The notes under the pieces: model-generated
The model's database searches: none
The model's input: only the letters and a program-made list of their open reading frames with translations
What the model was told of the DNA's origin: nothing
Shown here: positions 8,935 to 62,106 of the stretch, in pieces
Layout: each line of letters begins with the position of its first letter
How positions within the stretch are numbered: the first letter of the stretch is position 1
Position numbers and translations under genes: made by a program
Origin: Cinnamomum chago
Lineage: Eukaryota; Streptophyta; Magnoliopsida; Laurales; Lauraceae
DNA length: 64,000 nt
Direction of reading: 5' to 3'
NCBI GenBank assembly: GCA_038049695.1
Contig: CP142456.1
Span: forward strand, 16,954,501 to 17,018,500

Positions 8935-9357
8935 AAGGGCGTCCCACCAGCCTTGCACGCCCAAGGTGGACCCCCCTCTTTGGCTGCAAAAATCTAAAAT
9001 CCTTCCCTCCTAGAAAAGAGTCCAAGTTGAGATGGGGCCCATGGTGCAAATTTTCAATGAAGCAAGAGGTGGCGACCAAATTAGAAGTTCTTACACAACG
9101 AGGAATCCATCTTAGCAACTTTTTCAAAAATCCCTTGTTTCTCTCCCACACCTTCAAAAACCTTGCTAAACTTGTAGATCAAACTACTAACCTTCCTAAT
9201 TCCACCATTACTTGGAGGCTAAGATTGCAAGAACCATAAAAATGAGCAAAAGGGGGTTGTGACGTCCCATGTTGGCAGCCCCCATCTGATGCCCCTCTCT
9301 CCGTCTCCATCTCTTTCTCTCATTGGAACTCACCCAAGGGCCAACATTTTTGGCTGA
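8935..9357. other. Unassigned DNA between LTR remnants
   Basis: After the LTR end there is about 420 bp with no recognisable coding, RNA or terminal-repeat structure. It is presumably the DNA into which the gypsy element jumped, or older element debris. Confidence 0.4.
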
Positions 9358-33538: not shown

Positions 33539-34739
33539 AAGAGGTTCCTAACCTGTTGCTTGACCAAGTAAACTTACTGATTGGAAGCATAAATCCAAAA
33601 GGCAAAAGTCGAGATCACATCCTGGAATTAAATATCTGGTACCCTGTTGTAAGCTAGCATGTCAATATCGTACTAATAAATAAAAAATTGTATCTAACGA
33701 TGCTGCAAAAAAAGCTACTGAAATTGACATAATATATGGAACATGACCGATGTCTCATCCAAGTCTCCCTTAATTCTTGCTCTAAATTTTTTTCTAGACT
33801 ATATAAATTTAGTAAAATTTGAATATTCTTCATCCAAAGAGGAAGATTTAATATACAAAAGATGCAAGCTAAGGCAATCAATCAATGTTATTACTTTGTT
33901 GAGAATTCAAGAACATTAAAATCTAGAAAAACCTACACTAACTACAATACATAAACTATCGCATTGCAATAAACAAGAAATATTCAACAAAGCAATAGCA
34001 TTTTACAGGTCCAGAAAAGAACATTCAATGCAAGACCAGCAGAGCTAAAAAAACAATGCATTAAACAAAAAAAATAAAGAATGATGTTTCTTACTAGCAA
34101 ACAAAAAAAGAATGATCTTTCTTTCCGTGGTAGACATAAAAGGGACTCATATGGAACTTGGGTCATTAGCATCATTTGATAAAGGAGTTTAAGATGAGGG
34201 AATTTAAAGCTTGTCTACATAGCATCAATTGATATAGCTGGTATTTATATAGATATAAGGACATGGGCATAGATCATTTCCCTTCTGGGTAATTTGAGTT
34301 TGAAGAAAAACGGGATTTCTCTTTCCCCATGGCAAAGAATCATCATACAGATGGGTAATGTCAAGGTTAAAAAGGAAACCTTCTCCCAAGAAAACAAAAA
34401 AGGTTAAAAGGAAACAGCATGGAACGATACCAGACTGTGAAGATACTAGACTAAGAAGAGTTGTCAGTTGTCCCCGACTGTTCTATAATAGCTGGATGGA
34501 AAAGAAAGAGAAGGAATTACCGAATGGGGCGTGCCAAAACATACCTTGACCTAAGAGCACTTATATTGAGATTTCCAAGGAATTTGTGTCATCTTTTTTA
34601 TGGTTGCAATAGAGACGAGAATAGCTAGGTGGAAAACAAAGAGAAGAAGAAATTAATGAATGGGGGTGCCAAAACATACCTTGACTCAAGAGAACTTATT
34701 GAGATTTGCATGCAATTTGTGTAATCTTTTCGATGGTTG

Positions 34740-34743
<4 letters not shown>

Positions 34744-34776
<33 letters not shown>
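34744..34776. repeat. (AG)n microsatellite
   Basis: About 16 AG units, followed by smaller GA tracts at 34969-34982 and 35214-35230. All lie on the 3' side (minus-strand transcription) of the MADS exon. Confidence 0.95.
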
Positions 34777-34777
<1 letters not shown>

Positions 34778-35234
34778 GTCCTCTTTCAGCTCATCTCTGT
34801 TAGGGTTTGAAAGAAAAAACCCATTTGAAAAGAGGCGACCCTATTGCAAGGACATATAGCTTGTATGGAGATCAGCCTAAGTACATATGAGAGAGAGCAA
34901 TTATAGCTAAGTACAAGAGATATAGATATATATAGAGAGAGATATAAAGAGATCAGCAGGTACGAGGAGAGAGAGAGAGAGAGGTCCTATGCCTCCTCTC
35001 TCCTTTCTTGTCAACCCCATCTATCTGAATTAAGAACGTAAGCCAGGAAGACGAAGGACACAAATGAATCCGAAGAGAATTTGAAAAAGGAAAAAAAACA
35101 TATATCAAGAAAGCCGACTCAATTCCAAATCATGCAGCATGTATAGATATTAGCCCAAGCACTTGAAAAGATTAAGAGACAGAAAGAAAGAGAAGGAAGA
35201 AAAACTCAAGTACAGAGAGAGAGAGAGAGAGTAC

Positions 35235-35416
35235 CCCGCGTTTGCAAATTCATAAAGCCTCCCAGTGGGGGAGAAGACCATGAGCGCAACCTCCACATCG
35301 CACAGTACTGACAGCTCAAACGCCTTCTTCAGAAGCCCATTTCTACGCTTTGAGAAGGTCACTTGCCTGCTGGCAGCATTCTCTATCCTCCTCAGTTGCG
35401 TCTTTCCCCTCACCAT
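35235..35416 (-). CDS. MIKC-type MADS-box gene, exon 1 (SOC1/TM3-like)
   Basis: Encodes the DNA-binding and dimerising MADS domain of a nuclear transcription factor. The start ATG (35416-35414) opens [19 protein letters not shown], followed by [39 protein letters not shown] and N. The residues match the MIKC consensus: [26 protein letters not shown], and the MVRGKTQ opening used by the SOC1/TM3 (AGL20) clade. The exon is 182 bp and ends at a GT donor (minus strand, 35234), the usual length and phase of MIKC exon 1. No stop or frameshift is seen. The frame extending upstream as an Arg/Glu repeat is only the CT microsatellite in the leader. Downstream exons (I, K and C regions) were not recognised in the window, so the gene may have a very long TE-bearing first intron, or the exon may be an orphan. 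Confidence 0.9.
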
Positions 35417-35424
35417 TCTTTCCC

Positions 35425-35427
<3 letters not shown>

Positions 35428-35456
<29 letters not shown>

Positions 35457-35468
35457 GCTCTCGCTCTC
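35428..35468 (-). repeat. CT/GA microsatellite in the MADS-box 5' leader
   Basis: An imperfect CT tract lies 12 bp upstream of the MADS ATG (GA on the transcribed strand). GA-rich leaders are common in plant developmental genes; a role here is inference. Confidence 0.8.
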
Positions 35469-36310
35469 TGCATAAAGTAAACAAAGGCCCTATAACTGAA
35501 TGATTGAAACCAAACAAAGACATACTAAGAAGAAGAAAAAATCAAGTCCCAAATACGAAGTGTACAGAGCTCAACTCAACAAAAATGGAAATTACGCTGT
35601 TCTTGACGGCCAATCAACAAGCATCAGCAGGTAAAAGAAACCAAACCGCACGCAACGACCTCACACTTATCTTTTTCCTCGATGGAGTAGAATAGGAATA
35701 ATTTGGTCTCGTCTTTCCCTTCTAGTTTATGCCTGTTTGGGTAAAAAGCAGAAGGAATAGCAGAAGCAACGAATTATAAATAAAATAAATGCACTCCGAG
35801 CAACCTTGACTGAGTCGTTGGTAACTTTTAACTTCATTCTGCTAAAGTGGCCTGACGTGAAGGGTTAAAGATAACAATGTGGAGGTGTCAAATAAAAAAA
35901 GTGATGACTTTAATTTTATAATTTAGTGAGATGAGGATCTAATTTTTAGGGAATTTTATGGGGAAAAATACTTTAGGTGGGCATTATACTGAACAGAAAA
36001 TACTAAGTTAACATGTACCTAATAGGAAATCCGTATAGAAAAACCAACTGTTTTTACCATTTTTTTCGATGGTCACTCTCGACTTTCATTTCATGTCGAC
36101 CTTTGCTATAACAAGTGAGGGTCGCCATCAACCCTGAGCAGACATAAATTCTTCACCTTCTTCACTTTTTCTCACTTCCCCAAACTCAATCAAATGAAGG
36201 AGAAGTATATGATTGTACTACTTGCGTATCAGTATCTCTTATTTTTATAAATTATATGTTAGGCACGATACAATATGGTAAGGATCTAATAATTTGTAAT
36301 TCTCAGTCTA

Positions 36311-36424
36311 TCCAAAGAATGCCCTTATCCTGATAAAAACAATGTTTGGAATTGAGTAGAATGCTTTCCTTGGAGAGCAGGCAACTTAAGTTCTCGTTTC
36401 AGAATCGGTGGACCCAAATGAAAA
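36311..36424 (+). pseudogene. Captured HD-ZIP class IV homeodomain fragment
   Basis: After KECPYPDK and a short frame shift, the plus strand encodes QCLELSRMLSLESRQLKFSF and QNRWTQMK. This is helix 2 to helix 3 of the HD-ZIP IV homeodomain (consensus KFWFQNRRTQMK); the invariant Trp of WFQNR is Ser here and an Arg is Trp, so it is decayed. The parent family (ANL2/PDF2/HDG type) regulates epidermal cell fate. It lies between the inverted repeats of the Pack-MULE, and the CACTA insertion begins 42 bp downstream. Confidence 0.88.
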
Positions 36425-36625
36425 GCTCCAGATCTACTGTGTGGGATTTATATTTATTATTATCTCACTGTAAGAAATCTAGACTGTTGTGGTGAAATTT
36501 GATGACGAAATTTTTTTTTGTCTTAAAAGAACACTCAAAGAGGACGAAATATAAATTTTGTCGTTTGTTTTCAGTTTTTTCAAAAGTATAGGAGACGAAA
36601 AAAAATTTCGTCTGCAAAAATAAGG

Positions 36626-37400
36626 CGCCAACTTCATTTGCGTTGGCGCCAATTATTTTTTCTCATTGGAGACGAACATTGTTGTCACAAAATATCTTTT
36701 TTTTTGCGACGAACGTAATTCGTCACCAATAAGGATAAGTTATGAAAGATGAACATATTTCGTCACCAAAATAAGGCTTTGGAGCGAATTATTTTAGCTC
36801 ATTGGAGACGAACATTTTTGTCACAAAATATAATTTTTTTTTGTGACGGACGTAATTCGTCACTAATAAGGATATATTATGGAAGACAAAAATATTTGGT
36901 CACCAAAATAAGGCACCAATTTCATTTGCGTTGGCGCGAATTATTTTAGCTCATTAGAGACGAACATTTTTGTTACAAAATATAATTTATTTTTGCGACG
37001 AATGTAATTCGTCACCAATAAGGATAAGTTATGGAAGACGAACATATTTCGTCACCAAAATAAGGCGCCAATTTCATTTGCTTTGGCGCAAATTATTTTA
37101 GCTCAATGGAGACGAACATTTTTGTCACAAAATATAATTTATTTTTGTGACGAACATAATTCGTCACTATTAAGGATAAGTTATGGAAGACGAAAATATT
37201 TGGTCACCAAAATAAGGAGCTAATTTCATTTGCGCTGGCACGAATTATTTTAGCTCATTGGAGACGAACATTTTTGTCACAAAATATAATTTATTTTTGC
37301 AACGAACGTAATTCCTCACTAATAAGGATAAGTTATGGAAGACGAAAATATTTCGGCCAATAAAATAAGGTACCAATTTCATTTGCGGTGGCGCCAATTT
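36626..37400. repeat. CACTA subterminal tandem repeats with TTCGTC/GACGAA motifs
   Basis: Five imperfect units of about 140-160 bp, each with ggcgcnaattattttagctc, gacgaacatttttgt, taattcgtcac and taaggataagttatg. The short inverted TTCGTC words are the type of subterminal motif bound by CACTA transposition proteins; binding is inferred. Confidence 0.85.
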
Positions 37401-37439
37401 CATTCGCACTTGAGCCTATTCCTCTCTCATAAGTATTGC

Positions 37440-37912
37440 TTTAAAAAAAACCTTTAAAATGACTAAAATGCCCCCCTGGCCCTAACGTCTTTCCCTCCCC
37501 CCAAATCCAACGCCCCTTTTCCAAAACTCATTTCCCCCTTTGTCCCTCCATCTATCCCGGTCTCTCTTTTCCAAAACCATTTCCCCTCTTTTCCAAAACC
37601 CTTTTGCAAAAGAGGAGAGAAGAACCATTTTCCCCATTTTCCAAAACCCTTTTCCAACATCTCCAACCCATCGTCTCAGGCAGCAGCCCCATGGCCCATT
37701 GGCCCCCATGAATCATCATCACCCTCCATCAACACACGCAGTGCAGACCCATCCCTGATCAGTGATCCCTCTCATCTCTACTTCTTTCAGTCTCTCTCGC
37801 CTAGAACTCCCAAACGCAACCACCATCACCAATCACCATCACCTGTGCCCATCATCCTCCATCCAGGAGTTCGTCAGCGCCAGGTACACGTACATCTCTC
37901 AGTCTCTGCTAC
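37440..37912. other. C-rich non-coding interior of the CACTA element
   Basis: A pyrimidine-rich stretch with repeated ttttccaaaacc words (37510-37660), then CATCACC-rich DNA. Glycine/lysine-rich minus-strand frames reflect these repeats. It could be a captured gene leader, but no product is recognisable. Confidence 0.5.
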
Positions 37913-38096
37913 TATGAGAACTTGGTTCGGGCAGTACCCTTAACAACGGGGCATAGCGTGTCAACCACGGGCTTCAAACGGTGAGTCTCCGTTAGCCCGC
38001 ATCAAAAATATCCAAGTCCTGACCTTGGGCTTATAAGTCAAACCTTGTATTAACTTAACATGAGGCTTTTAAAAGTCGTGCATCCCCAGAAATCGT

Positions 38097-38168
38097 AAGA
38101 ACTCTAAAGTTAAGCGTGCTAGGGCGGGAGCAGTACTAGGATGGGTGACTTCCTGGGAAGTCCTCGCG
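38097..38168 (+). ncRNA. 5S rRNA-derived segment in Cassandra LTR1 (pseudogene-like)
   Basis: Matches the 3' part of plant 5S rRNA, including the pol III internal control regions: box A region aagttaagcgtgct and box C region aggatgggtgacttcctggg. Equivalent segments lie at 38453-38526, 38809 to 38865 plus 41759-41775 (split), 42063-42136, and on the minus strand at 61108-61177 and 61420-61493. The 5' third of 5S rRNA is absent, so these are not functional rRNA genes. Confidence 0.9.
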
Positions 38169-38865
38169 CGTGCACGTGGGCCAAAGCGGACAATTTCATA
38201 CTGAGTTGGGCGGGGCTGTGACAGTTGGTATCAGAGCCGAGGACGACTCTATTTCTAGTGGGGAAGAATGTGAGATCTTGGTCCGGGTGGTACCATCAAC
38301 CACGAGGCGTAGCGTGTCAACCACGGGCTTCAAACGGTGAGTCTTCGTTAGCCCGCATCGGAAATATCCAAGTCTTGACCTTGGGCTTATAAATCAAACC
38401 ACGTATTAACTTAGCATGAGGCTTTTTAAAGCAGTGCGGCCCCGGAAATCATAAGAACTCCAAAGTTAAGCGTGCTCGGGCGGGAGCTGTACTAGGATGA
38501 GTGACCTCTTGGGAAGTCCTCGCGCGTGCACGTGGGCCAAAGCAGACAATTTCATGCTGAGTTGGGCGGGGCTGTGACAGTTGGTATCAGAGCCGAGGAC
38601 GGCTCTATTTCTAGTGGGGGAGAATGTGAGAACTTAGTCCGAGCAGTACCCTTAACCACGGGGCGTAGCGTGACAACCATGGGCTTCAAACGGTGAGTCT
38701 CTGTTAGCCCGCATCGAAAATATCCAAGTCTTGACCTTGGGCTTATAAATCAAACCTCGTATTAACTTAGCATGATGCTTTTTAAAGCCGTGCGGCCCCG
38801 GAAATCATAAGAACTCCGAAGTTAAGCGTGTTCGGGCGGGAGCAGTACTAGGATGGGTGACCTCC

Positions 38866-41758
38866 TGTAACACACCGACCCACCTTAATTCTGATTTAGA
38901 GTTAATTAACTTAGATTAGTAGCTTGATGGATGTTTTGAATGTAATTGGGCTTGATTAGGTAAAATTAGTTGGGTTTGACCATGGACTAGGTAGATTATG
39001 ACTTTTGGAGTGTTTTGGGCTTTTGTGTGTGTATTTAGAATTTTATGGATTTTTAGCGCATTGCATAAAGCATAGCATGGGCTTTGATTTTTCATGTTTT
39101 GACTCAATGGATTCGGATCCATCTTGACCCATTTCCAGCCCATTTTTCTAGCCCAAGCCCCTTTTTGAAATTTCCAGTCCTTTAACTGGACTTGCATGCA
39201 ACTGCAGGAAATTCCAACTCAAAAACCCCTTTCTCCCCATTTCAAACGAAGTTTCTTCTTCATTTCAGCTGGAAACCTTCTTCTCCTTCCTTTGTCTTCT
39301 ATCTCTGTCTTCTTCTTAAAACAGTTGCTGCATGTGGGTTTTGGTGAAAGCATCTTCATCCTCATCTTCTTATTCATCTTCTCCAAGTCTCCATTTCCTT
39401 TAAGTGTGCTTCATCTTCTTCATTGGTAAGTATTTCTCATTCTTTCCCTTGCTTTTGCTTCAAATCAGTGAAATGGTGTTACAGTTCTTGCATGCATCTT
39501 CTTCTCCCTCATTCCATTTCATTTCATCATTTTAGGTTGCTTCTTGATCTTACATTTTGGGGTTTTTACTTTGGAGAGCTTGGCTTTGCTAGGAGGGATT
39601 GATTTGGTGTAGGATTCGAATTTAAGCACCTTAAGGCAAGTTAAATTTATATAAATGTATGCATGTATCCCTATTTGATTCTTTGAATATGATCAATCAT
39701 GTTAGATACCCATTCCTTTGCTCAAAAATGGATTTTTGTTTATGTTTTGGATATAAGAAATTGATTGTTTCTCTTGTTGATTCAATGTTGAATGTAAATT
39801 GGACAATTCTTGAGTTTTGTGAGCACTTTGGTGGATCATTTTCGTCCAAATTATGTCTTGAAAAAATGGTTTTTGGTTTAGAAGAAGAACACAGAAAACA
39901 GGGCATTTTTTGAGCTCAAAAGTGTGTACAGTGACCTTCTCGCTCGAGCCAAGCGTTTGGTCGCTCGAGCGGACCAGTTTCTGCCCAGAAAATGTGTCAC
40001 AGAACCCTGTTCGCTCGAGCGGATCATTGTCTCGCTCTAGCGGATGGGCCCATTGGGCCCAACAGTGCAAACTTCAAATGGCCATAACTTTTTAACCGTA
40101 CGTCCATTTTTGGAGTTCCACATACCGTTGGAAAGCTCTTGAAGTGTAGAATCCAATGGTCCATACATATGATTGATTTGAAATTTGAGGAATAAGTGGA
40201 TATTGGATTTTAGTAAAAACTATGGCTTTCGAATGGTACCGCGAGCCAAGAGTTGAACCGTAGTATGTTTAGATTAATTGATCTGATAGTTGGACCTTAA
40301 GGATGGATACCTTGAACATTTTATCATGACCAATGGACTTGTATATTAGGTGGATGCGGTTTGAGCAACCGTGCACCCACAGGGAACCTCGTGTTCTTCG
40401 AAATTGAGATCTGAACAAAATGTGTTATACTAAGGGATTCGGTACCCAAAATTATGTAACGCCAAGGGTTCTTTTGTACGCCACTAACACCGAAATCCTT
40501 AGTACTATACTGAGTTGGACGGTGAAGACCCCGAGAGTTCCCAAGATCGTAGGATTGGCTTGTTTCATATCTTGATTCTGTCTATGATTTATGTTCATGC
40601 ATTGCATTCCGTTTCCAGTACTCTCGTATGACTTGATCATACTTCTGTCTAGTTATGTATATCTTTCTTATGTATCTATTTATATTATATCTGTTTTCGC
40701 TTCTGATCCGTTACATCTTGATAAGTTTTGAATTATGATAAGTCTTGAATTATGTACCATGATATGATCTGTTCTGTATATGTTCTGTTGTTTTGTATAT
40801 TTTGTTCCACGAGTCGGCACCACTTGGCTTCGACCCTATCTAAGTCGGACCCGGCTAAGTGTGGGTTTAGTATATATTTCTGGCCCTCTGCAGATGGGAT
40901 TATATTCTAAGGGTTGACCGGCACCCTAGGTCCACGATGGAGAGTTTTGGGCCCTCTGTCTCCTAGTGGCACCGCCCTGTTCTGTTCTGTTTTGTTTTCT
41001 GCTCTCACTTTACAGACATGTTTATATGGTTAATTTGAGAGAATATAGCTAATGTGGATGTGCCATTTAGTTATGTTATTGTGTATACCTGTAAAATTTT
41101 GATTCGTACGTCTCATGCTTATTCATGCTCATATTTGCCTAGTAATTATGCTTTGACCTCCTGTGATTTATATATGTCTAACAATTTCATTTGTTACATG
41201 TTATATGATTTATATATGTTTATCTTGCTTAGCTTAGTCTAATGGTGCTACACTTGGCGCTACAGGTGACTACGTCGATGCCACCAACCCGGAGATCCAC
41301 GAGGAGGAGGAATCTCCCAGTCGCGTAGCCGAATGGACTTCTGATGATGTCTTCTAGACATCTACTTGTTGAGATTGGACGCAAAAATGACCCATAGACC
41401 GTGGCTTGGATTGCCACATCTTTTGTTATAGTTTATAAACTTGTTTAGACTATGGCTTGTAAACCTTAACTTAACGTACTTCTTTCTCTTTCTATCTCTT
41501 GAACTTAAACTTGAACCTTTAATCTATGCTCACAAACCTTATGCTCTATATCTTAAAACATTTGATGTTGTTGGATTACGATTTGATATCTATTTGATAG
41601 AATTACACAGGTGAATGGAAAATTTGAAACCTCACACGTGAAATCCTATGGGTGAATTCCGTTCGTGGGGACGAGGGTCAATTTATTTGACTCGAATCCC
41701 CATGCGAGCGTTTGTCGCGCCTCGAGATGGGTGCACTCTCGGGCTCGGGGGCGTGACA
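38866..41758 (+). mobile_element. Tekay-like solo LTR inside Cassandra LTR3
   Basis: 2893 bp from tgtaacac to gcgtgaca, with a perfect duplication cctcc at 38861-38865 and 41759-41763. It splits the 5S box C region of Cassandra LTR3 (normally gacctcctggg). It has no internal domain, so it is a product of LTR-LTR recombination. Same family as 3552-8934 and 43032-45932. Its ctcgagc palindromes lie at about 39941-40045. Confidence 0.95.
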
Positions 41759-42262
41759 CCTCCTGGGAAGCCCTCGCGCGTGCACGTGGGCTAAAGCGGA
41801 TAATTTCATGCTGAGTTGGGCGGGGCTGTGACAGTTGGTATCAGAGCCGAGGATAGCTCTATTTCTAGTGGGGGGGGAATGTGAGTTCTTGGTCCGGGCG
41901 ATACCCTTAACCACGGGGCGTAGCGTGTCAACTATGGGCTTCAAACAATGAGTCTCCATTAGCCCGCATCGGAAATATCCAAGTCCTGCCCATGGGATTA
42001 TAAGTCAAATCCCGTATTAACTTAGCATGAGACCTTTTAAAACCATGCGGCCCCGAAAATTGTAAGAACTCTGAAATTAAGCGTGTGCTTGGGTGGGAGT
42101 AGTACTAGGATGGGTGACCTCCTGGGAAGTCCTTGAGTGGGGCGGGGTTGTGACATCTTTAAAATTAAATGCGACAAAATTATTTCGTCTCTATTTCTTA
42201 TATTTATGACAAAATATTTTTGTCTTTAATTTCTTCCTTTAATGGAAAAATATTTTATCACT

Positions 42263-42346
42263 AATTACTTACAAGTATGTTTCCAACAGAGTGTATTGGA
42301 CAAAAAAAAAAATACTTACGAGTATGTTTCCAACAGAGTGTATTGG
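42263..42346. repeat. Direct duplication in right arm of the CACTA element
   Basis: Two adjacent copies of a unit of about 34 bp (tatgtttccaacagagtg and flanks) lie at about 42267-42300 and 42312-42346, separated by an A run. Confidence 0.85.
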
Positions 42347-42577
42347 AGAGAAAAAAATCGTCACAAATTTATCTTTTTTAATGATTAAAATTTTTTTCGT
42401 CTCCAATACCTTTTAGCGACAACGCTTTGGCAACAAAACGGGTGACGAAAAATTTTCGTCTCAATTAGCTTCGGTGACGAAATATGTACATTTTGGAACA
42501 AATTTGTGTCGTCCTTAAACCCCAAATTTCTTACAGTGTCTTTGGGTAAGTTGTAATTGAGACTATGGAACCTGATT

Positions 42578-42815
42578 ATCACAAACCCAACTCGAACGCC
42601 ATGAGAATTCACTCCTTATACAAGACAATGACAAGCTCCGAGCTGAAAATCTGACCATTCGGGATGCAATGAGGAACCCAATTTGCAGCAATTGTGGAAG
42701 CCTGGCGAAGTGTCTTTAGAAGAACAACACCTTAGGATAAAAAGGCACTATTGAAAGATGCACTAGACCGTGTTTGTGCCCTTGCAGGGAACTTCTTGGG
42801 CATGCCCCCACCTCT
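42578..42815 (+). pseudogene. Captured HD-ZIP class IV leucine-zipper fragment
   Basis: The plus strand encodes [39 protein letters not shown], then after a one-base shift [13 protein letters not shown], and LKDALDRVCALAGNFLG. These are the consecutive signatures of the HD-ZIP IV leucine zipper-loop-zipper, including its CxxCG loop. It continues the homeodomain fragment at 36311-36424; the CACTA element separates them. At least two frameshifts make it non-functional. Capture by the surrounding Pack-MULE explains its presence without START domain or upstream exons. Confidence 0.92.
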
Positions 42816-43031
42816 ATGACTACTACTTTTCAATCAGTGTAAATTACAAGTACCATAGATCTTGAATCCTACCAATATTGTATCATGCCTAGCATATAAT
42901 TTGTAAAAAATAAGAGATACTGATACATAAGTAGTGCAGGCATGGACTTCTCCATCAATGAATTGAATTTGGGCTAGAGATGAAGAAGGAAGAAGGTGAA
43001 GAGTTTATGCCTGCTCAAGGTCGACAGCGAC

Positions 43032-45932
43032 TGTAACACCTCGACCCACATTAATTTCGATTTAGATTTAATTAACTTAGATTAGTAGCTTGATGGATGT
43101 TTTGAATGTAATTGGGCTTGATTAGGTAGAATTAGTTGGGTTTGACCATGAACTAGGTAGACTATGACTTTTGGAGTGTTTTGGGGTTTTATGTGTGTAT
43201 TTAAAATTTTATGGGTTTTTAGTGCATTGTATAAAGCAAAGCATGGGCTTTGATTTTCATGATTTGACCCATTGAATTCGAGCCCAAATCGACCCATTTC
43301 CAGCCCATTTTTCTAGCCAAGCCCCATTTTGAAAATTCTGCAACTTAGTGGCACTTGCATACAGATGCAGGGAAAGATTTCAAATAAAACACCCAGCCCA
43401 GCCATTCTTCTCCTCTTCCTTCATTTCCAACCACTAAAATTCCATCTCCCTCTTCACTTCTTCTCCAAATGTTCTCAAGATAAGACTCTAGGGACCTTGC
43501 ATGTGAGCTTGGGAGTTCTACTTTCATCTTTCTTCTTGTCTACAACAAGGTTTTCAACTCCCAAGTCAAGAATAACTTTTTTTTTTTTTCACTTCTCGAC
43601 ATTTTTGGTAAGATCTTTGATTCAAAATTCATGTCTCCTTGTTCAAATCCGAATTTGGAAGGCTATGTTGGTGTTGCATGTGGATTTCAAACCCATTCTT
43701 TTCATTTACCATTGTAGGACTTCATCTTCTTCATTTCATTTGGGGGTTTTTCTTTTGGAGAGCTTGCTTGGGATATAGAGCTTGATTATAGCTTGGATTT
43801 GTGATTTTCAGCTTCAAGCACCTTAAGGCAAGTTAAATTTATATAAATGTATGCATGTATCTCTATTTGATTCTTTGAATATGTTCAATCATGTTAGACA
43901 CCTATTCCTTTGCTCAAAAATGGATTTTTGTTTGTGTTTTCTTAAGAAATTGATTGTTTCTCTTGTTGATTCAATGTGGAATGTAAATTGGGCAATTCTT
44001 GAGTTTTGTGAGAACTTTGGTGGCTCCTTTAGTCCAAGTTTATGTCTTGTAAAGATGGTTTTTGGTTTAGAAGATAGAACACAGAAAATAGGGTATTTCT
44101 GAGCTCAAAAAATGGGTACAGCGTGCTTCCCACTCGAGCCAAGCCTTGGCCGCTCGAGCGGACTAGTCTCTACCCAGAAAATGCGTCACAGAACCATGTT
44201 CGCTCGAGCGGATCGTTGGCTCGCTCGAGCGGATAGGACAATTAGGCCCAACAGTGTGAACTTTCAATGGCCATAACTTTTTAACCGTACGTCCGTTTTT
44301 GGAGGTCCACATACTGCTGGAAAGCTCTTGAAGTGTAGAATCCAATGGTCCATACATAGATTGATTTGAAATCCAGGGAATAAGTGGATATTGGGTTTTA
44401 TCTTAAACTATGGTAATCGAATCGTACCACGAGCCAAATGTTGAACTGTAGTATATTTAAATTAATTGGCTTGATAGTTGGACCTTAAGGATGGATACCT
44501 TGAACCTTTTTATCATGACCAATGAACTTGTGTATTATGTGGATGCGGTTTGAGCAACCGTGCACCCACAAGGGGCCTCATGTTCTTTGAAATTGAGATT
44601 TGAACAAAATGTGTTATACTAAGGGATTCGGTGCCCAAATTAAGTAATGCCAAGGGTTCTTTTGTAGGCCACTAACACCGGAATCCTCGTGTTCTTTTGT
44701 AGGATTGGCTTGTTTTATATCTTGATTACATATATGATCTATGTACATGCATTGCATTCCGTTTCCAGTACTCTTGTATGACTTGATCATACTTCTGTCT
44801 AGTTATGTGTATCTTTCTTAGGTACCTATTTATATTATATTTGTTTCTGCTTCTGATCCGCTACATCTTGATAAGCTCTGAATTATGGTAAGTTCTAAAT
44901 TATTTACTATGATATGATCTGTTCTGTATATGTTCTGTTAATCTGTACTTTTATTCAGCGAGTCGGCACCACTTGGCTTCTACCATATCTAAGTCGGACC
45001 CGGCTAAGTGTGGGTTTAGTATATATATATATATATATATATATATTTCTAGCCCTCTGCAGATGGGATTATATTCTGGGGGTTGACCGGCACCCTAGGT
45101 CCACGATGGAGAGTTTTGGGCCCTTTGTCTCCTAGTGGCACCACCATGTTCTGTTCTGTTTCTGCTTTCACTTTACATACATGTTTACATGGTTAATTTG
45201 AGAGAATATAGCTAATGTGGATGTGCCAGTTAGTTCTGTTATTGTGCATATCCATTATCTATGATTTGTACAACTCATGCTTATTCATGCTCAGATTTGC
45301 CTAGTAATTATGCTTTGAACTCCTGTGATTTATATCTATCCAACAATTTCATTTGTTCCGTGTTGTATAATTTATATCTGTTTATCTTGCTTAGCTTAGT
45401 CTAATGGTGCTACACTTGGCGTTACAGGTGACTACCTCGATGCCACTGTCCCGGAGATCCACGAGGAAGAGGAATCTCCCCGTTATGTAGCTGAATGGAC
45501 TTCTGATGATGTCTTCTAGACATCCACTCGTTGAGATTTGGACGTAAAATGACCCATGGACTGTGGTTTGGATTACCACATCTTTTGTCATAGTTTATAA
45601 ACTTGTTTAGGCTTTGGATTGTAAACTTTAACTTAACATACTTCTTTCTCTTCCTATCTCTTGAACTTAAACTTGAACCTTTAATCTATACTCGCGAACC
45701 TTATGCTCTATATCTTGATGCATTTGATGTGGTTGGATTACGATTTGATATCGATTTGACAAAAATTGCACAGGTGGAAGTACAGGTAAACAGAAAATTT
45801 GAAACCTCACACGTGAAATCCTGTGGGTGAATTCCGTTTATGGGGACAAGGATCAACGAGTTTGACTCGAGCTCCCATGCGGGCGTTTGTCGCTCCTCGA
45901 GATGCGTGAATTCTCGGGCTCGGGGCATGACA
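43032..45932 (+). mobile_element. Tekay-like solo LTR inside the Pack-MULE right arm
   Basis: 2901 bp from tgtaacacc to ggcatgaca, flanked by gcgac (43027-43031) and acgac (45933-45937), a one-mismatch duplication. It is more similar to 38866-41758 than to the LTR at 3552-8934 in the palindrome and tail regions. A (TA)n tract at 45019-45046 is private to this copy. Confidence 0.93.
45019..45046. repeat. (TA)n microsatellite in the solo LTR
   Basis: About 14 TA units where the sister LTRs have only atatat, showing expansion after insertion. Confidence 0.9.
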
Positions 45933-47939
45933 ACGACCCTCACTTGTTACAGTGAGGGTTGACAACACAGGAAATGAAGGTCGATAGCGACCACCGAAAA
46001 AATGGTAAAAAAAAGAAAGTTGGTTTTCTGTACGGGCTCCCTGTTAGGTGCGTGTTTTGCCTAATGTTCCCTGTTCGGTATAGTGCCCACCTAAAGTGTG
46101 TTTTCCGGTAAAAACCCATAATTTTTATAACGCAGTTTTTTTTTTAATTTAAGGACATGTTTGTAAACAGAGAGAATTCCTTTGTTTAGAGGATTCACTC
46201 CATCTTCTAAAATCAAAATATCCTCATGTAGGATTTGTAATGAGAATTCTGTAAGTCCATCGGGATCCGAACCCTAGAGGGGGGGTTAATAGGGTGAGCT
46301 TCTTTTATGACCAATTTTAACAATTTTAACTTCTTTAAAACAAACTAGTCACAAGTGATGATTATCAAACAAAATGCGGAAGCTTAAAGAAAACAATCAC
46401 CACAAAGCAAGCACCATCACACAAGTATTTATAGTGGTTCGGCCTCAATGCCTACATCCACTACCGGCTTGTGATCCAACACCCCACCGGATTTCCACTA
46501 TTTATGCTTTTCAATAGGCTAAGCAATAACCTTTACAACATGCTTTTCAAGGCTAAGCAATAACCTTTACAATGATGTTTTTCCAAGGCTAAACATCAAC
46601 CTATACACTATGCTTTTAAAGGCTAAGCAATAACCTCTTCAACCACAAGGTTGGTTATCTCACTAATTAGTGTCTATCATACACTTGATGGAGATTCTAT
46701 TAAGCTCATTACAGTGCCTCTTAATTAGGCGGATATGGAAGTGAAAAACAAATACACACTCACACTATGAATGCAAAGATGAAAACACATGAAGTGTGTG
46801 TGTGTGGTCCTCAATCATTTTGAAAATGAAAGCTCATAAATGTATGCCTAAGGCTTTTGAAAGTTCTAGCTCATAAAACATTTATGATTGAGGATGAAAT
46901 GCAATCACATGTTAAAAGTAACAACTTGTTAATGATATCAAAGTTACACAAGTTGTATGAAATGGATTAGCTCTAAACATGTGATGCATATGGATGTCAA
47001 TCAAATCATCAATGTAGCTCAAAACATAAAAATAGATTTGATTGAAATTAGGGGACAAATCATATGTAATTATAAATACAACTTGAAAATGATTTACCAA
47101 TCAAAGTAAGGCAAGTTGTGAAACATTAAAACAATAATACACATATGATTTGTAATGATGTTGAATCCAAAACATAAGATACATTTGAAAGAGATTTTCT
47201 TATGATGGAAAACAACAACCAAAGATTCAACAAAGTATATGAATCATGTTACATATTTCATTAACATGATCTACTTAGATTTACCAAAGATAAAGTACTA
47301 CTTTGATGAATCAATGGTGATGTATCCAAAACAATAGATCTATTCAAAATATAACACATGCTAAGGATACAACAAATTATAGATTAACATGTTACAAAGA
47401 TTTACCAATGATAAAACAAAACATGAAAACATATGATTTGTAAAGAAGTTGAATCCAAAACATAAGTTAGTTTTGAGAGAGATGTTCTTATGATGGAAAA
47501 CAACAACCAAAGATTCAACCAAGTATATGGATCATGTTACATGTGATTTCAAAGATTTTTTCATTAACATGATCTACTTAGATTTACCAAAGTTAAGTAC
47601 TACTTGGATTGAATCATATGATGTTGTATCCAAAACAATAAATCAACTCAAAACATAAAACATGTTAAGGACACAACACAAACATAGTTTAACATGCTAG
47701 AAATGATTTACCAAAAATAAAACAAAGCATGAAAACATATGATTAAGGAAGGAAGAGCCTACTTGGTGGTTTAACTTCATTAATCCAAGCTTTAGCTTTC
47801 CTAATCATCCCCTTCATCCCTTGGTTCTTTTCCCTTTTGATATGCCTCAATACCTCTCAAGGAGGGGCTTAAAATTCCCAACTTTTGGCAAGGGAAAGAA
47901 CTCATATTTATAGCAAAAAGTTGCCAACGGCTAGTCCTC

Positions 47940-48140
47940 GGTCGACCTAGACACAGGTCTCGGTCGACCGAGAACACACAACGGTCATATTTCTGACCGT
48001 TGGTGCTCCCAGGCAAATTTTGCCTGCAGTTTTCTCGGTCGACCGGGAAGGCACAACGGTCATATTTCTGACCGTTGGGGCTTCAGGCAAAATTCTGCTG
48101 CAGTGTCCTCGGTCGACCGAGACCTGTGGGTCGGTCGACC
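47940..48140. repeat. GGTCGACC palindrome cluster with duplicated hairpins
   Basis: Five ggtcgacc palindromes at 47940-47947, 47962-47969, 48037-48044, 48111-48118 and 48133-48140. Between them a segment of about 75 bp is tandemly duplicated; each copy contains an inverted repeat with arms aacggtca/tgaccgtt (47980-48001 and 48055-48076). This GC-rich block is set in an otherwise AT-rich LTR, so conservation for a regulatory or packaging role is possible but unproven. Confidence 0.85.
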
Positions 48141-48157
48141 GGCGACACTGCCGGGCC

Positions 48158-48158
<1 letters not shown>

Positions 48159-48193
<35 letters not shown>
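48159..48193. repeat. 35-base poly(C) tract
   Basis: An uninterrupted C run inside the SIRE-like solo LTR. Proline- or glycine-rich frames across it are artefacts. Length should be treated cautiously because homopolymers are error-prone in sequencing. Confidence 0.95.
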
Positions 48194-48567
48194 TTTTTTG
48201 CAAAAATTCAACTTTTCACATTTTAAAGGTATTTCTTTGGGGGACCTTTTGGCCACTAAATCAAGCTTGGAAAACATGTTTTAAAGATTCTAATGGTTTT
48301 TAAAACATGACATAAAAAGCCTAAAAAGATTCAAAATTTTTAAAACAAAGGCTTGCTTGATTTCTTGAAAACTCTTTTCTAAAACAAATGCATCCAAGAT
48401 GAAAATACAAATCATGCATAAATCAATACTTTTACAAATCTTAAAAGCAATGCATGAATAAAACAAGATTTCAAGTTTATTTAAAACAATGCAAGTGTGA
48501 GAATTCAAATGATGCTAATATGATAATGCATCCATCAAATTGCAAATACAAAATCCCTAACAAATTC

Positions 48568-51184
48568 TAGAATCAGTATTGAGAGAGGATTTCTACCATT
48601 GGCAGAATCTATGATTTAATAATTGTAAGAATTTTTTTTTTTATAATAACTCAAGATCAATGAGGAATCAAGACCTCAGCTCTATACTCGAACTTGGACG
48701 TTTTTGAGGATCAACGACAGAAGTTTGAGAAACCATCCTTTTTTATCTTTCGAAAATAATTCACGGTTTAGATCATGATTTTGGGTCCAACAGAAATCAG
48801 AAAATTGAAAAAAAAAACCATTTTTATCTCGTTTTTTACACTGTGTGAGATCAACGGTCAAGAGTATTTGGCCAATTTCTCATGATCCATGAAGAATCAG
48901 GCTGCCAAATTTTGGACTCATAGCCGTTCTAACTAGGCATTCTTAAGAGATTGGACGGTTTGTATTTCGCAAATGGGGCCCACAGAATTTCAGAAATCGT
49001 CATTCAATATTGGTCTGGACTTTTTTGCAATTATACCAAAATCTACAAGGGATCGACTGCTAATATTTGATCAAATGGACGTGTTTGCCCATTTTAAGAG
49101 GATGACCAGTTTGGATAGTGATTTTATGGCCCACATAAATGAAAAAAAAATCAAAAACATAATCAGTCCAAAATAATCTTGCGTGTTACTATGGCTCCTA
49201 TTTTCACTCCACACCCCCACCCCCCCACCCAAAAAAAAAAAAAAAAAAAAAATCATTTCCCCCTGTCTAGTGATTTCATTGCCTCCTTTTTCCTCAATAG
49301 CCTGCAATGTAGTCCAAGAGGTCATTTTTGAACCTCCTTTGGATTGACGTGGATGAATTCTTCTTGAAGGTATTCGAGGTACAATGCCTACACTTTTTTA
49401 CTAGCCAGAAACTTGGTGTTTTGCGCTATCATTGATGGGTCTACCATTGTGTTCTCTCAGCTTTCATCCAGACACCTTTATTTCATATTTCTTGCATCAG
49501 CTATCACTATTTTTACCGAGTTTCAACTATTTAGCTTCCTTTTAACTACCTACACGCTTGTCTCGAATGAGCTTCAACATTGTAGAATTTGGGCATAAGG
49601 CGATGTTATTTCTAGCCAAACAAGCCAAGTGGAATTTCAATCTCATTTTTTATTTATCCCGCCTGAGTACTTGTTGTCTCAGAGCTTGCATTGGACATTT
49701 GATCTATCTAATTTGGTGGCAAACTGCCAACAAAGGTATGTTCTATTGGTTTTCTACTGGGTGGATTTGGCTATCTTATTATATATTGTCTTGAATTGTT
49801 TCGGATACAAAAAGGTGTTATTCCAAAATAGGTGTTACAAACATGGTATAAGAACCTTGATTCTGCCAGCCGTGGGTGTAGGAACAAGTGTCCTTTGGGT
49901 ACATGCCAACTGTTTGATAAAAGGACTTAATGACTAAAGTATGAAAATTGGTCAAACAGCCAAGACTTTTTGAAAAAGTTCGAAACTTGTTAAGGATTGA
50001 TCAGCGCATAGTGGTGGTAGGGATATTGTTTGAATATGAAGTTTTTGAACTTGTATTCCATGTTTTGTAATTGTGCTTGCAATATGTATACTGATTTCTT
50101 TAGATCATGTAGAGTGTGTGCACATCATAGTAAATCTAATGAAAAATTTTCAAACTAAGATCAGTGTCGACTTCGTCGCCTAACAGAATATGCTGCCAAA
50201 CTTAATAGTTTAAATTTACGTCAATGTCGTCGCCCGACAATTTATGAACTCTTGCTGAAGATTAGAATGAGCGACGACATTGTCGCTCCATATAATCTTG
50301 AAATGCTTGGTCACATTCATGAAATGAGCGACGATGTCGATGCTCGTTGAAAAAGGGCAAAAAATAAAAATGAAAAAATTGGCGGGAAGACCGATTCTGT
50401 TTCATAAAAACTATGGGGCCTTTTTTGGTTAATGGCAATCTAAGGTAATTTCTCAAATAAATTCCTCTAAAATAGATTTATCAAACATGGCGAGGCCGGA
50501 AGGGTAGGAAATCACCTCATTAGAACCCCGCCAACTTGCGCCGTATGATAGGGCACATTTGGTCTCAATCACGAGTCAGATCCAAATCCAATCGACAAAA
50601 TCTAGGGATGCTCCTGCAAATCTGTCAGTGGTGTCCCCTTTTAAAATCTTAAGAGCCCAAAATGAAATCTCAAGTTTAATTAAATTTTGTGCATGCCACA
50701 ATGCTGAGAGGTTGGCCCCACACCCATGAGGTGTCGCAAGCTCACTTCACGAGGCCGTACAATTCTGTACGAGGAATGACCACTGAGACCTAGACGCGTG
50801 GGCTGCGATAGTTGCCTCAACGATCTGGACGAGACCCGATCCTTTGTTTCCACGTGCCCAGTCCACTTCAACCTGATCCTTTGTTTCCGAACACTTGGAT
50901 GGTCTGGAGTTATTATAGCATGCTTTGCAAACACTTGGAGGTTGTTATTCCCGCAGTCATAAAAAAAATTAAGGCAATCGACGATAGGTCCCTGAAGATT
51001 TCACTTTATGGCCTTAGATCCATAACCTTTTTTCATAGTGTGATAGGTCCTTTATCTAAATTTAAATACCTTAAATATCTAATTTACCCTTTTTTTAAAT
51101 CATATCTCATGATTAGTGAGATATGCCATTAATAATGGTTAACTACCATTTAATTGGCCGCGATTAATGATATCTCATTAATTA
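48568..51184. other. Intergenic DNA, no gene recognised
   Basis: A C/A homopolymer junction lies at 49206-49253. At about 49837, acatggtataagaacctt resembles a decayed primer-binding site after gtgttaca, hinting at an eroded LTR element, but no partner LTR was found. GACGACAT-type words recur at 50165-50345. No coding sequence is recognised. Confidence 0.35.
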
Positions 51185-58210: not shown

Positions 58211-61200
58211 ATGGTGCGTGACATAGATCCAGCATGGAGCCACGGTGAAGCAGTCGGAAGCAAAAGTAAAGTAAAATGTAATTATTGTTAACGAGTGCTC
58301 AATGAGGGTACTTGATTGAAACAACATTTGGCATATGTATTAGGACAAGTGACAAAATGTGAGTTGAAATGCAGGAACTCCTTAATGCATCTGCCAAAAA
58401 AAAAAGTTGTACAAGAAAGAAGAAGAGCTGAGGAACTTGTTGCATGTAGAGAAAAAGTATTTGCTTCCTCCGATGATGACCATGAAGACCAGGAAATGAG
58501 GAGGGCTAGGAAAGAAAGTGTGAAGTCACTTCAGGAGGAGGAAGAGAGGAGAAGAATGCAATATGAAGCAGCCACTAGAGGTAGCCAATATGAGCAGAGT
58601 GGTTCATCCGGACCAGAGGGAGTGAGTTTGCATCGGGCATTTAGTAAAAAACAACGCCGTCAAGATCCAGACATTGAGGAGGTTGAAAGAGCTCCTACAT
58701 ATGCACCTCGTAGGCCGGATGTGGTGGGGCCAACTGACCCATTTGCTTTTAGAAAACCAGCATCAAAGCAGCCCAACATTATGAAAACATTAAAGGGCAA
58801 GTTTGGTAAAGCAGGAGAACATCTAGTGAGAGCCATTGGGAAGGTTTTTTTTTTTTTTGGATGGAGGCATTCCACCCAACAAGGCATCTTCTCCTTATTT
58901 CACCACCATGTTAGATGCAGCTGCAGAACACGGTCCAGATATACAGGCACCCACCCCTTATGAGACTGGGCATGTCTGTATTGAGAAAGAGTATGAGGAG
59001 TTGCAGGCTTGGGTGCAAACTTTCAAATGGGCATGGAATGAAAGAGGTTGCACACTAATGTGCGATGGGTGGACGACCATCACACATCGTCATCTCTTGA
59101 ATTTTCTAGTCTACTCGTCTATGGGCATGGTGTTTATCAAATCAGTTGATGCAACTGATTACATCCAAGATGCAAAATATATTAATAAGTTATTGAATGA
59201 TGTGATTGAAGAAATTGGGGCAGATTGTGTAGTTCATGTTATTACTGACGATGTTGCAAACATGAAGACTTCAGGAATGATGCTTATGAAACAAAGGCCA
59301 AGGATTTTCTGCTCTCCATGTGCAGTACATTGTCTGGATTTAATACTTGAAGATATTACAAAAGGAAAAGTCATGCAATAAGAGATTGGTAAGATAAAGA
59401 AGATCACCAATTTTTTTTATCAGTCATATAGACTCATTTCCATCATGAAAACGCATACAAACAACTATGAAATACTGCGGCCTGGCATCACTAGATTTGC
59501 CACCCACTTTGTTGCAATCAAAAGTGTTTACAAGTATAGAGAAGGACTTCTCCAATTGATAAAATCATAGGAGTTCATGAATTCTAAATGGGGAAAGAGG
59601 CCAAGTCCCATTACAAAAGAAGTATGTAAAATAATTGAATACAACAAATTTTGGCCTCATGTGAAGGGTGTTTTGAATGTTTTTGATCCCCTAATAAAGA
59701 TTTCTCGATTGGTTGATGGCGATGATAAGCCAACAATAGGCTTCTTACGAGCTTCTTAGATGAGGCCATGGAGAGATCAAAGCTGGCTATTCAAGCAGAT
59801 TGTAGATATTACAATAAATTTTGGAAGATCATCGATGATCGATGGTGAATACAATTGAAACATGATTTACACACTGCTGGTAAGTTAAGGCTATTTCTTT
59901 TAATAGTTGAATTGTTGTATTCAACTCTCCTCACTATATTAATTTATCATTGACTAAAATTCATTGGTTTTACATTATACTTCTTTAATCCACAATTCAC
60001 GGATGGACACATATCTGATGAAATCCGTATGGGACTAAAAAATGAAATTGAAAGATTGACAGAGAGTACAGATAAAGCAATTTGGGCTACTAATCAGGTA
60101 AGATAATTAAGTAAAAACGTATATAACATTGTAATTTCTCTAATTTATTCTTATACGTTAATGTCTTCAGATTGACATATACAATGTACGTGCTGGAAGC
60201 TTTGGAACGACGACTACGCAGAGAGCTATCACACAGACCAATCCTGGTATTGATTGTAAAGTCATCTCTATATTATTCAAGGACTTATTATTATTTTATT
60301 GACTCTAATACCATTTCTATTCTTCTTTTCAGCTGAATGGTGGTTGAATTATGGAGATAGTGCTCCTGCACTAAGGACGATTGCTATTAAAGTCCTTAGT
60401 CAAACTATATCGTCTTCCAATTGTAAAAGAAACTGGAGCACCTTCTTGTTTATCCACACAAGATCAAGAAATAGATTAACAAATAAGAAGCTAAATAAAT
60501 TGGTTTACATCCACTACAACCTCAAGCCTCGGAGTAGAAATAGAAAAAGAAGACAGTTTGAGGATCACCGAGATTATTTTTGTCCAATTAATTTGGACTA
60601 TATCTCTTCAGAAAAGGATACTGTGTTAGGTGAATGGCTGGAGAACAAGAAGAACTGGTGTTAGACCAAGACCCAGAATTTAAGAAGTTGATGGAGGAAT
60701 TGACTGAGGATAGGCTTAAGTCAGTGAGTGTTACAGAAAGGATAAAAGAAATAAACTTGACAATGCAACATGAGTGCGCACCTGATACGAGTGAGCCAAG
60801 GGGAAAGGAGGTGGACGAGGAGAGTGAGTCAAGTATTTATACTTCTTCATCATCAGCAGGAATTCCACTAGACTCTGTCGGGGATGAGGGTCATTATAGA
60901 GACAATGAGCCTGTCACTTATGAGACAGTTGAGCATTTTCCTGGGGCTACCGAGTTAGATCCTCACCATGGCTATGTTAGATATGTTAGACAGAACGAGG
61001 TAGGGGGTAGTAGTGGCGCCGCTGTGCAAGGAGTGGGGGAAGGTACTCTGTCATAGCCCTGCCCAACTCAGCATGAAATTGTCCGTTTTGGCCCACGTGC
61101 ATGCGCGAGGACTTCCCAGGAGGGCACCCATCCTAGTACTGCTCTCGCCCGAGCACGCTTAACTTCGGAGTTCTTACGGTTTCCGGGGCCGCACGGTTTT

Positions 61201-62106
61201 AAAATGCCTCATGCTAAGTTAATACGGGGTTTGACTTATAAGCCCAGGGTCATTGAAGCCTGTGGTTGACACGCTATGCCCTGTGGTTAAGGGTGCCGCC
61301 CGGACCAAGTTCTCACATTCTCCCCCACTAGAAATAGAGCCGTCCTCGGCTCTGATACCAACTGTCACACCCCCGCCCAATTCAGCATGAAATTGTCTGC
61401 TTTGGCCCACGTGCACGCGCGAGGACTTCCCAGGAGGTCACCCATCTTAGTACTGCTCCCGCCCGAGCACGCTTAACTTCGGAGTTCTTACGATTTCCGG
61501 GGCTGCACGATTTTAAAAGGCCTCATGCTAAGTTAATACGGGGTTTGACTTATAAGCCCAGGGTCAGGACTTGGATATTTCTGATGCGGGCTAACATAGA
61601 CTCACCGTTTAAAGCCCGTGGTTGATACGCTACGCCCCGTGGTTAAGAGTGCCGCCCGGACCAAGTTCTCACATACTCATGGTCATCATGGGGTTTATGT
61701 TGGCCAACAAGATGCCATGTATGGACTGCATGGGGGTTATGTTGGCCAATAAGGTGCCATGTATGGACAGCATGAGGGTTATTCATATGACCTTAATTGG
61801 GTGCCCCCTTCACCAACACCGATACTTTCTCACGAATAGATGTTAATTGAGCAAGGGAGGCTTCCCACACCAATTTCGAAACGACCATTTCATACCCCTC
61901 ATACCTATTTTATGCAATTTGAGTACAACTAGCCATCTCAATCCACAGGGGATCAAGATAGTTCATCATCTTATCAAGAACAATCTGAATATGGTCATGG
62001 GTATGGTAGTGCTGCATAGTAGTATGGAGCATATCTTTTTAACCAATACCGAAGAAATGGTGATGATGATGATATCGAGCCAGGGCGACACTCCACTTGG
62101 AATTAG
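58211..62106 (+). pseudogene. hAT transposase (BED finger, DUF659, hAT dimerisation domain)
   Basis: The start is at 58211 (MVRDIDPAWSHGEAVG). The BED finger follows (VKCNYC, then LKQHLAYV and C/C), with two in-frame stops. An acidic/basic linker leads to DUF659 at 58836-59377: GCTLMCDGWTTITHRHLLNF, LVYSS, FIKSVDATDYIQDAKY, VHVITDDVANM and CAVHCLDLILEDI. The central part continues through more stops (RPGITRFATHFVAIKS, VFDPLIKISRLVDGDDKP). Introns are suggested at 60098-60170 and about 60247-60332. The dimerisation domain is at 60333-60660 (EWWLNYGDSAPALRTIAIKV, LSQTISSSNCKRNWSTF, NKLNKLVY-like NKKLNKLVYIHYNL). After a frameshift an acidic, Ser-rich, then Gly/Tyr/His-rich tail follows. A Cassandra at 61049-61673 interrupts that tail, which resumes (GVYVGQQDAMYG) and ends near 62106 (RHSTWN). 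Confidence 0.9.
61049..61673 (-). mobile_element. Complete Cassandra TRIM inserted in the hAT transposase tail
   Basis: Two LTRs (61049-61317, with a deletion of about 40 bp; 61363-61673, 311 bp) flank a 45-bp internal domain (61318-61362). A perfect duplication tactc lies at 61044-61048 and 61674-61678. Minus orientation is set by the primer-binding site ttggtatcagagccgag and the polypurine tract. Removing the element and one duplication copy leaves the reading frame continuous, so it inserted in an exon. Both LTRs carry 5S-derived segments. Confidence 0.97.

Follow-up and report, generated by a model that had tools for sequence, protein, structure and literature searches.

Which insertions, and in what order, gave rise to the nest of transposable elements on contig C6 of the Cinnamomum chago genome assembly? 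The stretch of DNA that we analysed, called the window here, is 64,000 nucleotides long (C6:16954501-17018500), and our genome searches cover the 1.06-Gb assembly with its 14 contigs. The original prediction described window positions 35940-46127 as four nested levels, namely a Pack-MULE holding a CACTA element, the CACTA element holding an array of Cassandra elements and the array holding a solo long terminal repeat (LTR), with a second solo LTR in the right arm of the Pack-MULE. The nest is genuine: all boundaries and target duplications were found again, the earlier coordinates are correct to about 30 bp, and the Pack-MULE, the CACTA element, Cassandra and both solo LTRs had been given their correct names. 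Containment is indeed four deep, but the insertion steps number three, since both junctions between the array and the CACTA element recur at unrelated sites. Accordingly, the first reading is supported in part, and in its revised form the locus consists of three nested insertions and one side insertion, the right-arm LTR. The Cassandra array is cargo of the CACTA element and made no separate insertion at this locus. Such nests are ordinary in plant genomes, and this one is ordinary in itself; the novelty is the Cassandra-carrying CACTA family, which is a variant of the known capture by DNA transposons.

The CACTA element is non-autonomous and 6073 bp long with the nested LTR (36466-42538, forward strand), and it ends in CACTGTAAGAAAT and ATTTCTTACAGTG. 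The predicted TCT stands on either side of it (36463-36465 and 42539-42541), and two related loci without the element, L004 and L005, have TCT once. Repeat analysis places 152-bp subterminal repeats at 36594-37399 on the forward strand. The terminal motif with its terminal inverted repeat (TIR), a 3-bp target duplication and subterminal repeats are all present, and 3 bp is the size of the target duplication of CACTA elements. A passage of PMC8903248 gives 5 nt for rice and maize. The ends in the window have mutated to CACTG; family members end in CACTACAAGAAAT. For the family comparison, we fetched the 20 best-scoring matches to the left junction after the window (of 39), here called siblings, and added eight further copies, selected by their ends or by their right junction (L049, L050 with L052, L051 and L053-L057). 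Both ends were located through the motif CACTRYAAGAAA in 14 of the 20 siblings, with element lengths of 2466-3260 bp; CACTACAAGAAAT stands at 13 of 14 sibling left ends and its complement at 12 of 14 right ends. An exact 3-bp target duplication flanks 13 of the 14, and registers shifted outward gave none at five shifts and one in 14 at the sixth. At random positions within 30000-52000, equal k-mers occur at rates of 0.020 (k=3), 0.0016 (k=5) and 5.5e-5 (k=9). The insertion flanks are unrelated to one another: among 30 flanks (28 from siblings, up to 300 bp each, and two from the window) there was one similar pair, a 51-bp piece in opposite orientation.

The Cassandra array within this element (37913-42155, forward strand) consists of four 5S-bearing LTR units with a 356-bp period and a short last LTR. 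The units lie at 37913-38268, 38269-38624, 38625-38865 continued at 41759-41879, and 41880-42155. The internal domain, with the primer-binding site TGGTATCAGAGC and a purine tract, is found on the forward strand at 38224-38268 and also at 38580-38624 and 41834-41879. The exact Cassandra motif published in PMC7215508 occurs once on the plus strand of the window, in the nest, and once on the minus strand; it is absent from 20 shuffled windows and present in 11 of 26 CACTA copies, the window included. As had been noted before, the array has no target duplication of its own (flanks GCTAC and TCTTT), whereas a free Cassandra outside the nest (61049-61673, reverse strand) has the perfect duplication GAGTA (61044-61048 and 61674-61678).

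The junctions of the array with the CACTA element account for this difference. A query over the left junction (37360-37960) crosses it in 40 of 40 scored places, the window included (867 candidates), with matches running from query base 1-3 to 592-601. A query over the right junction (42060-42541) does the same in 40 of 40 scored places (1034 candidates; from base 1-8 to 473-482), and 26 of these 40 matches stop exactly at the last CACTA base. Copy by copy, the left junction is present in 26 of 26 copies tested (the 20 siblings, L049, L051, L053, L054, L057 and the window, with L055 and L056 left out), and in L050 it was found by blastn. The right-junction query spans its junction in 22 of the 26. 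Moreover, full Cassandra units have some 50 bases, following the 5S part and preceding the LTR end, that the last LTR in the window lacks; of 27 copies tested, 25 have both landmarks, and in 22 of these the last LTR is shortened at that same position. Since both junctions are common to CACTA copies at unrelated sites, the array came inside the CACTA element, and it lacks a target duplication here because it was carried in as cargo.

Pattern counts extend the comparison to the whole assembly. The 26-base CACTA left terminus has 634 matches (up to two mismatches) and the 27-base left junction 615, with none for the reversed control of either; the Cassandra internal domain has 1417, again with none for its control. 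C1 and C2 yielded a list of 33 exact CACTA termini, and for 17 of them the junction list, which allows at most one mismatch and runs as far as C2:87.3 Mb, has a left junction no more than 12 kb away (C2:91680668 lies beyond this range). Among the remaining 16, Cassandra is present in L029 and L051 and in three of five others that were fetched; the other two of the five, L055 and L056, have none within 3.2 kb. On the same contigs, a listed junction precedes at least 58 of the 99 listed exact internal domains on the same strand, at a distance of no more than 2.5 kb; the true number may be higher, given the one-mismatch limit on junctions, and a hundredth domain, past the range of the junctions, was excluded. 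With a model of the 5S part, two units were counted in nine siblings, three in ten and four in one, compared with four in the window element; a 31-base partial match in L032 was left uncounted. In eight of the 22 copies spanned at the right junction (L023, L024, L026, L028, L031, L032, L033 and L036), about 17-18 bases across the last LTR end are missing, which suggests subfamilies.

Considering that two to four units are retained in each of the 20 siblings scanned and that left junctions number 615 genome-wide, the Cassandra cargo could help the CACTA family through its 5S-type promoter units, for example by binding RNA polymerase III (Pol III) factors or by blunting silencing. We consider such a benefit improbable. 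The 5S part diverges more between copies than the adjoining CACTA sequence (mean pairwise 0.132 against 0.053 in 21 sequences), although the former value comes from fixed-length extraction and may be inflated by alignment, the model alignment giving 0.095 for first units. Comparison of the 5S part with its surroundings thus revealed no sequence constraint on the 5S cargo. The Rfam 5S threshold is reached by only 12 matches, in 10 of the 20 sibling loci, and by none of the four nest units. The lack of 5S conservation beyond the surroundings and the position of the nest units under the Rfam threshold speak for a passenger, which by these sequence comparisons is the likeliest status of the Cassandra cargo.

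The relationships between units indicate the age of the array. In 21 elements (one partial row was dropped), units sharing a position label, that is first, middle or last, are closer between elements than units with differing labels, and none of 1000 label shuffles within elements reached the observed value. Of 56 units, just one is most similar to a unit of the element in which it lies. The distances are 0.095 for first-first, 0.092 for middle-middle and 0.099 for first-middle pairs, and 0.14-0.15 in comparisons with last units. Because units match by array position across elements, the array is older than the spread of the copies.

These results also bear on two explanations in which Cassandra inserted into CACTA elements that were already in place. 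Four independent insertions, with Cassandra entering a resident CACTA element here and its duplication being lost later, would agree with the four-deep containment and with an array that shows no duplication. Both junctions recur at unrelated sites, which tells directly against this history, and first and middle units match by position between elements; we regard it as very improbable. The same very low probability applies to many Cassandra insertions at one preferred site in many CACTA copies. The left junction in all 26 copies tested would agree with a preferred site, but the same kind of last-LTR shortening in 22 of 25 copies tells directly against it, and the match of units by array position and the missing duplication at the window array, when the free copy has one, do not agree with it either.

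Several observations weigh against an array carried as cargo and the history built on it. Twenty of the 26 copies were chosen with the left-junction query, so that their left junctions cannot count as independent observations. The short form of the last LTR is missing from L022, L034 and L053 (2528, 237 and 317 bases from the last unit found to the right end), L019 and L030 lack a CACTA right end, and sibling L018 shows AAG/AAT in place of an exact target duplication. In L055 and L056 the CACTA left end is present, with no Cassandra in the 3.2 kb mentioned above. The position signal is due to first and middle units: the last-last mean is 0.145, compared with 0.144 for last-first and 0.139 for last-middle, and the nearest relatives of last units are middle units in 10 of 21 cases and last units in 9 of 21. 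No autonomous CACTA partner was found, and no genome-wide transposase search was made. At the outermost level, a search for the empty site TAATTTTTA, which the original prediction had proposed as a check, gave no clean empty site for the Pack-MULE among the 40 scored of 591 candidates.

Three long copies (L049, L050 with L052, and L051; 8-10 kb) were considered as autonomous candidates, with open frames of at least 120 aa listed, and rejected as ordinary members lengthened by later insertions. The later insertions in these Cassandra-carrying copies measure 6-8 kb, and that in L050 has a 1655-aa open frame.

The outer element is a true Pack-MULE. The 9-bp target duplication TAATTTTTA stands at both outer ends as predicted (35940-35948 and 46119-46127); the same 9-mer has three other places on the plus strand of the 64 kb and three on the minus strand. 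The left TIR lies at 35949-36285 on the forward strand, and the right TIR, on the reverse strand, is separated by the right-arm LTR into an inner part (42866-43031) and an outer part (45934-46118). When the arms were aligned as had been proposed, both pieces scored far above shuffled sequence: 35946-36124 against the reverse complement of 45934-46121 gave 138 (best of 300 shuffles, 29), and 36121-36285 against that of 42866-43031 gave 176 (best of 300, 38). The pieces are 76% and 81% identical, and the TIR is about 340 bp. The predicted arm coordinates hold overall but not at the inner limits, where the real ends are 36285 and 42866 rather than 36290 and 42835. The left arm with the duplication has 43 genome matches, two in its own element and 41 outside (40 of 357 candidates scored).

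Next to the arms lie the two halves of a captured fragment of an HD-ZIP IV gene, both on the forward strand. The first (36293-36465) contains the end of a homeodomain exon and the start of an intron, with a Pfam Homeodomain match in the exon; the second (42542-42828) contains the intron end and a zipper exon with a protein match. Both are matched without interruption by locus L047, at 84% over its positions 3346-3527 and at 88% over 3528-3826. The internal fragment 42542-42865 has nine other genome places (10 of 10 candidates scored), two of which fall within 239-aa open frames (C6:8254 kb, which is L047, and C3:118385 kb). Exons of L047 encode Homeodomain (E 3e-15) and PDF2_C (E 3e-51), with the beginning of START just under the cutoff, a domain set that identifies an HD-ZIP IV gene. 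L047 is the closer of the two genes seen (L048, 85% and 78%) and, by these matches, is likely the source of the fragment. As the capture contains an intron, it was made from DNA. The uninterrupted Pack-MULE of about 1.2 kb that was to be sought in the genome exists on C11, where L005 is an independent 1232-bp copy with its own 9-bp duplication, AAAAATAAA. Long TIRs, a 9-bp target duplication, exon-intron-exon capture from a located host gene and several copies sharing the fragment are all as in known Pack-MULEs, and we see no notable difference from them. Inverted pairs of Pack-MULE arms 1.3-1.4 kb apart, without the HD-ZIP match, occur at C4:12106715-12108149 and C6:19419993-19421281; these are possibly the same ends with other contents.

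The two remaining insertions are solo LTRs of one Ty3/gypsy family, both on the forward strand, and their predicted duplications were recovered. The inner LTR (38866-41758) lies between copies of CCTCC (38861-38865 and 41759-41763), and the right-arm LTR (43032-45932) between GCGAC (43027-43031) and ACGAC (45933-45937). On the unbroken left arm, the matches of the two right-arm pieces of the Pack-MULE overlap by 4 bases, indicating one site duplicated by the right-arm LTR, which is an independent sign of that duplication. Identity between the two LTRs is 83% across 2825 aligned bases, with boundaries 2-3 bases off. Elsewhere, two same-strand LTR pairs 7.73 kb apart were found (4 of 40 scored places; 195 candidates), and the interior of one has gag, reverse transcriptase, RNase H and integrase domains, the integrase core match being under the curated cutoff and its zinc-binding match over it. 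Single LTRs with duplications here and paired copies elsewhere identify solo LTRs of a Ty3/gypsy family. A third copy of the LTR family lies in pieces at window positions 3552-8935 (3552-4488, 4729-5543 and 8076-8935).

The order of insertion can be read from paralogous loci. The whole site has a paralog 150 kb upstream of the window, L004, which is collinear with 34468-36465, 42539-43025, 45929-46250, 48563-48692 and 48705-49001 in that order, and it holds the Pack-MULE with the same TAATTTTTA. Its CACTA site is empty, with TCT once, and its right-arm LTR site is an uninterrupted GACGACGATCC stretch; L005 is likewise empty at both sites. These empty sites place the Pack-MULE first, then the duplication of the locus, then the CACTA element and the right-arm LTR in the window copy. 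Together with containment, they uphold the predicted order from Pack-MULE to CACTA element to inner LTR. The window and L004 flanks are 94% and 93% identical, the nearest CACTA sibling read is about 93-94% identical in its left part and 93% in its right part, and a relative of the inner LTR is 97% identical over 458 bp. This order of identities fits the nesting, as a ranking and not as calibrated dates. Divergence of the Pack-MULE arms was rejected as a clock: two of the three Pack-MULE pieces shared by L004 and the window (35949-46118) are 83% identical and the third 91%, compared with 94% and 93% in the flanks. The pieces have thus diverged more than the flanks, as if parts of inverted repeats mutate faster.

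In the empty-site search for the Pack-MULE, both flanks were matched, besides the window, only by L004 and by L059 (C6:17245150-17247450) among the candidates scored. L059 is a third paralog of the flanks, with a different insertion close to the Pack-MULE site and no Pack-MULE match; the other 34 rows match a neighbouring repeat only. Beside the nest, about 2.3 kb of the window (46251-48562) is missing from L004 and has a short repeat around ATTCT at its edges. Its first 80 bases or so give 34 of the 40 scored rows, which suggests a further high-copy insertion. That the nest is an assembly chimera has a negligible probability given the duplications at insertion levels, the empty sites in L004 and L005 and the junctions repeated at other sites.

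Taken as a whole, a history of a Pack-MULE, a duplication of the locus, a CACTA element with Cassandra cargo and two gypsy solo LTRs is, in our judgement, very probably correct. A Mutator-like transposon captured about 480 bp of an HD-ZIP IV gene at the DNA level and spread as a Pack-MULE, one copy landing here with a 9-bp duplication, and the locus was duplicated afterwards. A non-autonomous CACTA element then inserted into the window copy with duplication of TCT, its transposase presumably supplied by an autonomous CACTA element that we did not see. Its family already held the tandem Cassandra array, which the element took along to hundreds of sites; this number comes from the pattern counts, and the copies read supply the junctions, ends and duplications. 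Ty3/gypsy elements inserted in the third Cassandra unit and in the right Pack-MULE arm, each later cut to one LTR, probably by the established route of LTR-LTR recombination. The missing duplication of the array is best explained either by capture together with flanking sequence or by a recombination of two Cassandra insertions that took place before the capture.

Each part of this cargo system has known counterparts. Passages of PMC7215508 describe Cassandra tandem arrays, and passages of PMC4717578 tandemly arrayed terminal-repeat retrotransposons in miniature (TRIMs). CACTA elements with captured genes and satellite arrays appear in the portions consulted of PMC8978399, PMC8903248 and PMC13317346, and the Chenopodium paper, one of the first two, describes tandem arrays inside CACTA elements. 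According to a section of the review PMC13317346, Pack-CACTA capture takes place between neighbouring copies with complementary terminal deletions; an array captured in this way would enter with its flanks and without a duplication, as may have happened here. On the one hand, the family resembles the Pack-CACTA and Chenopodium elements as seen in these excerpts, having CACTA ends, a small target duplication and foreign DNA that was moved and multiplied, but its cargo is a class I retroelement array, the Cassandra TRIM; the word Cassandra does not occur in PMC8978399, PMC8903248 or PMC13317346. On the other hand, the array resembles the Cassandra TRIMs and tandem arrays described there in its 5S-bearing LTRs, its short internal domain with TGGTATCAGAGC and its size of about three LTRs, but unlike known Cassandra arrays it lies inside a DNA transposon, with which it was multiplied; neither 'CACTA' nor 'DNA transposon' occurs in PMC7215508 or in the Cassandra paper PMC10853983. 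CACTA cargo and Cassandra arrays have each been described; that a CACTA element can carry a Cassandra array is mentioned nowhere in the open-licence literature that we searched at the level of titles, abstract starts and some passages.

A further suggestion is that a class II transposon is the main Cassandra vehicle in this genome, having dispersed more than 1000 5S-type promoter units (extrapolated from 615 junctions and the two to four units per copy read), and that these units serve as binding sites for Pol III factors or give rise to new Cassandra elements; we hold it to be unlikely. What the locus does offer is a DNA transposon seen spreading a retroelement array wholesale. Nesting depth does not equal insertion number, and a layer that has no target duplication could have arrived as cargo. 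Copies with two to four units each let the loss and gain of array units be followed from one founder. Accordingly, counts of Cassandra or 5S-like sequences in such genomes would partly measure CACTA activity.

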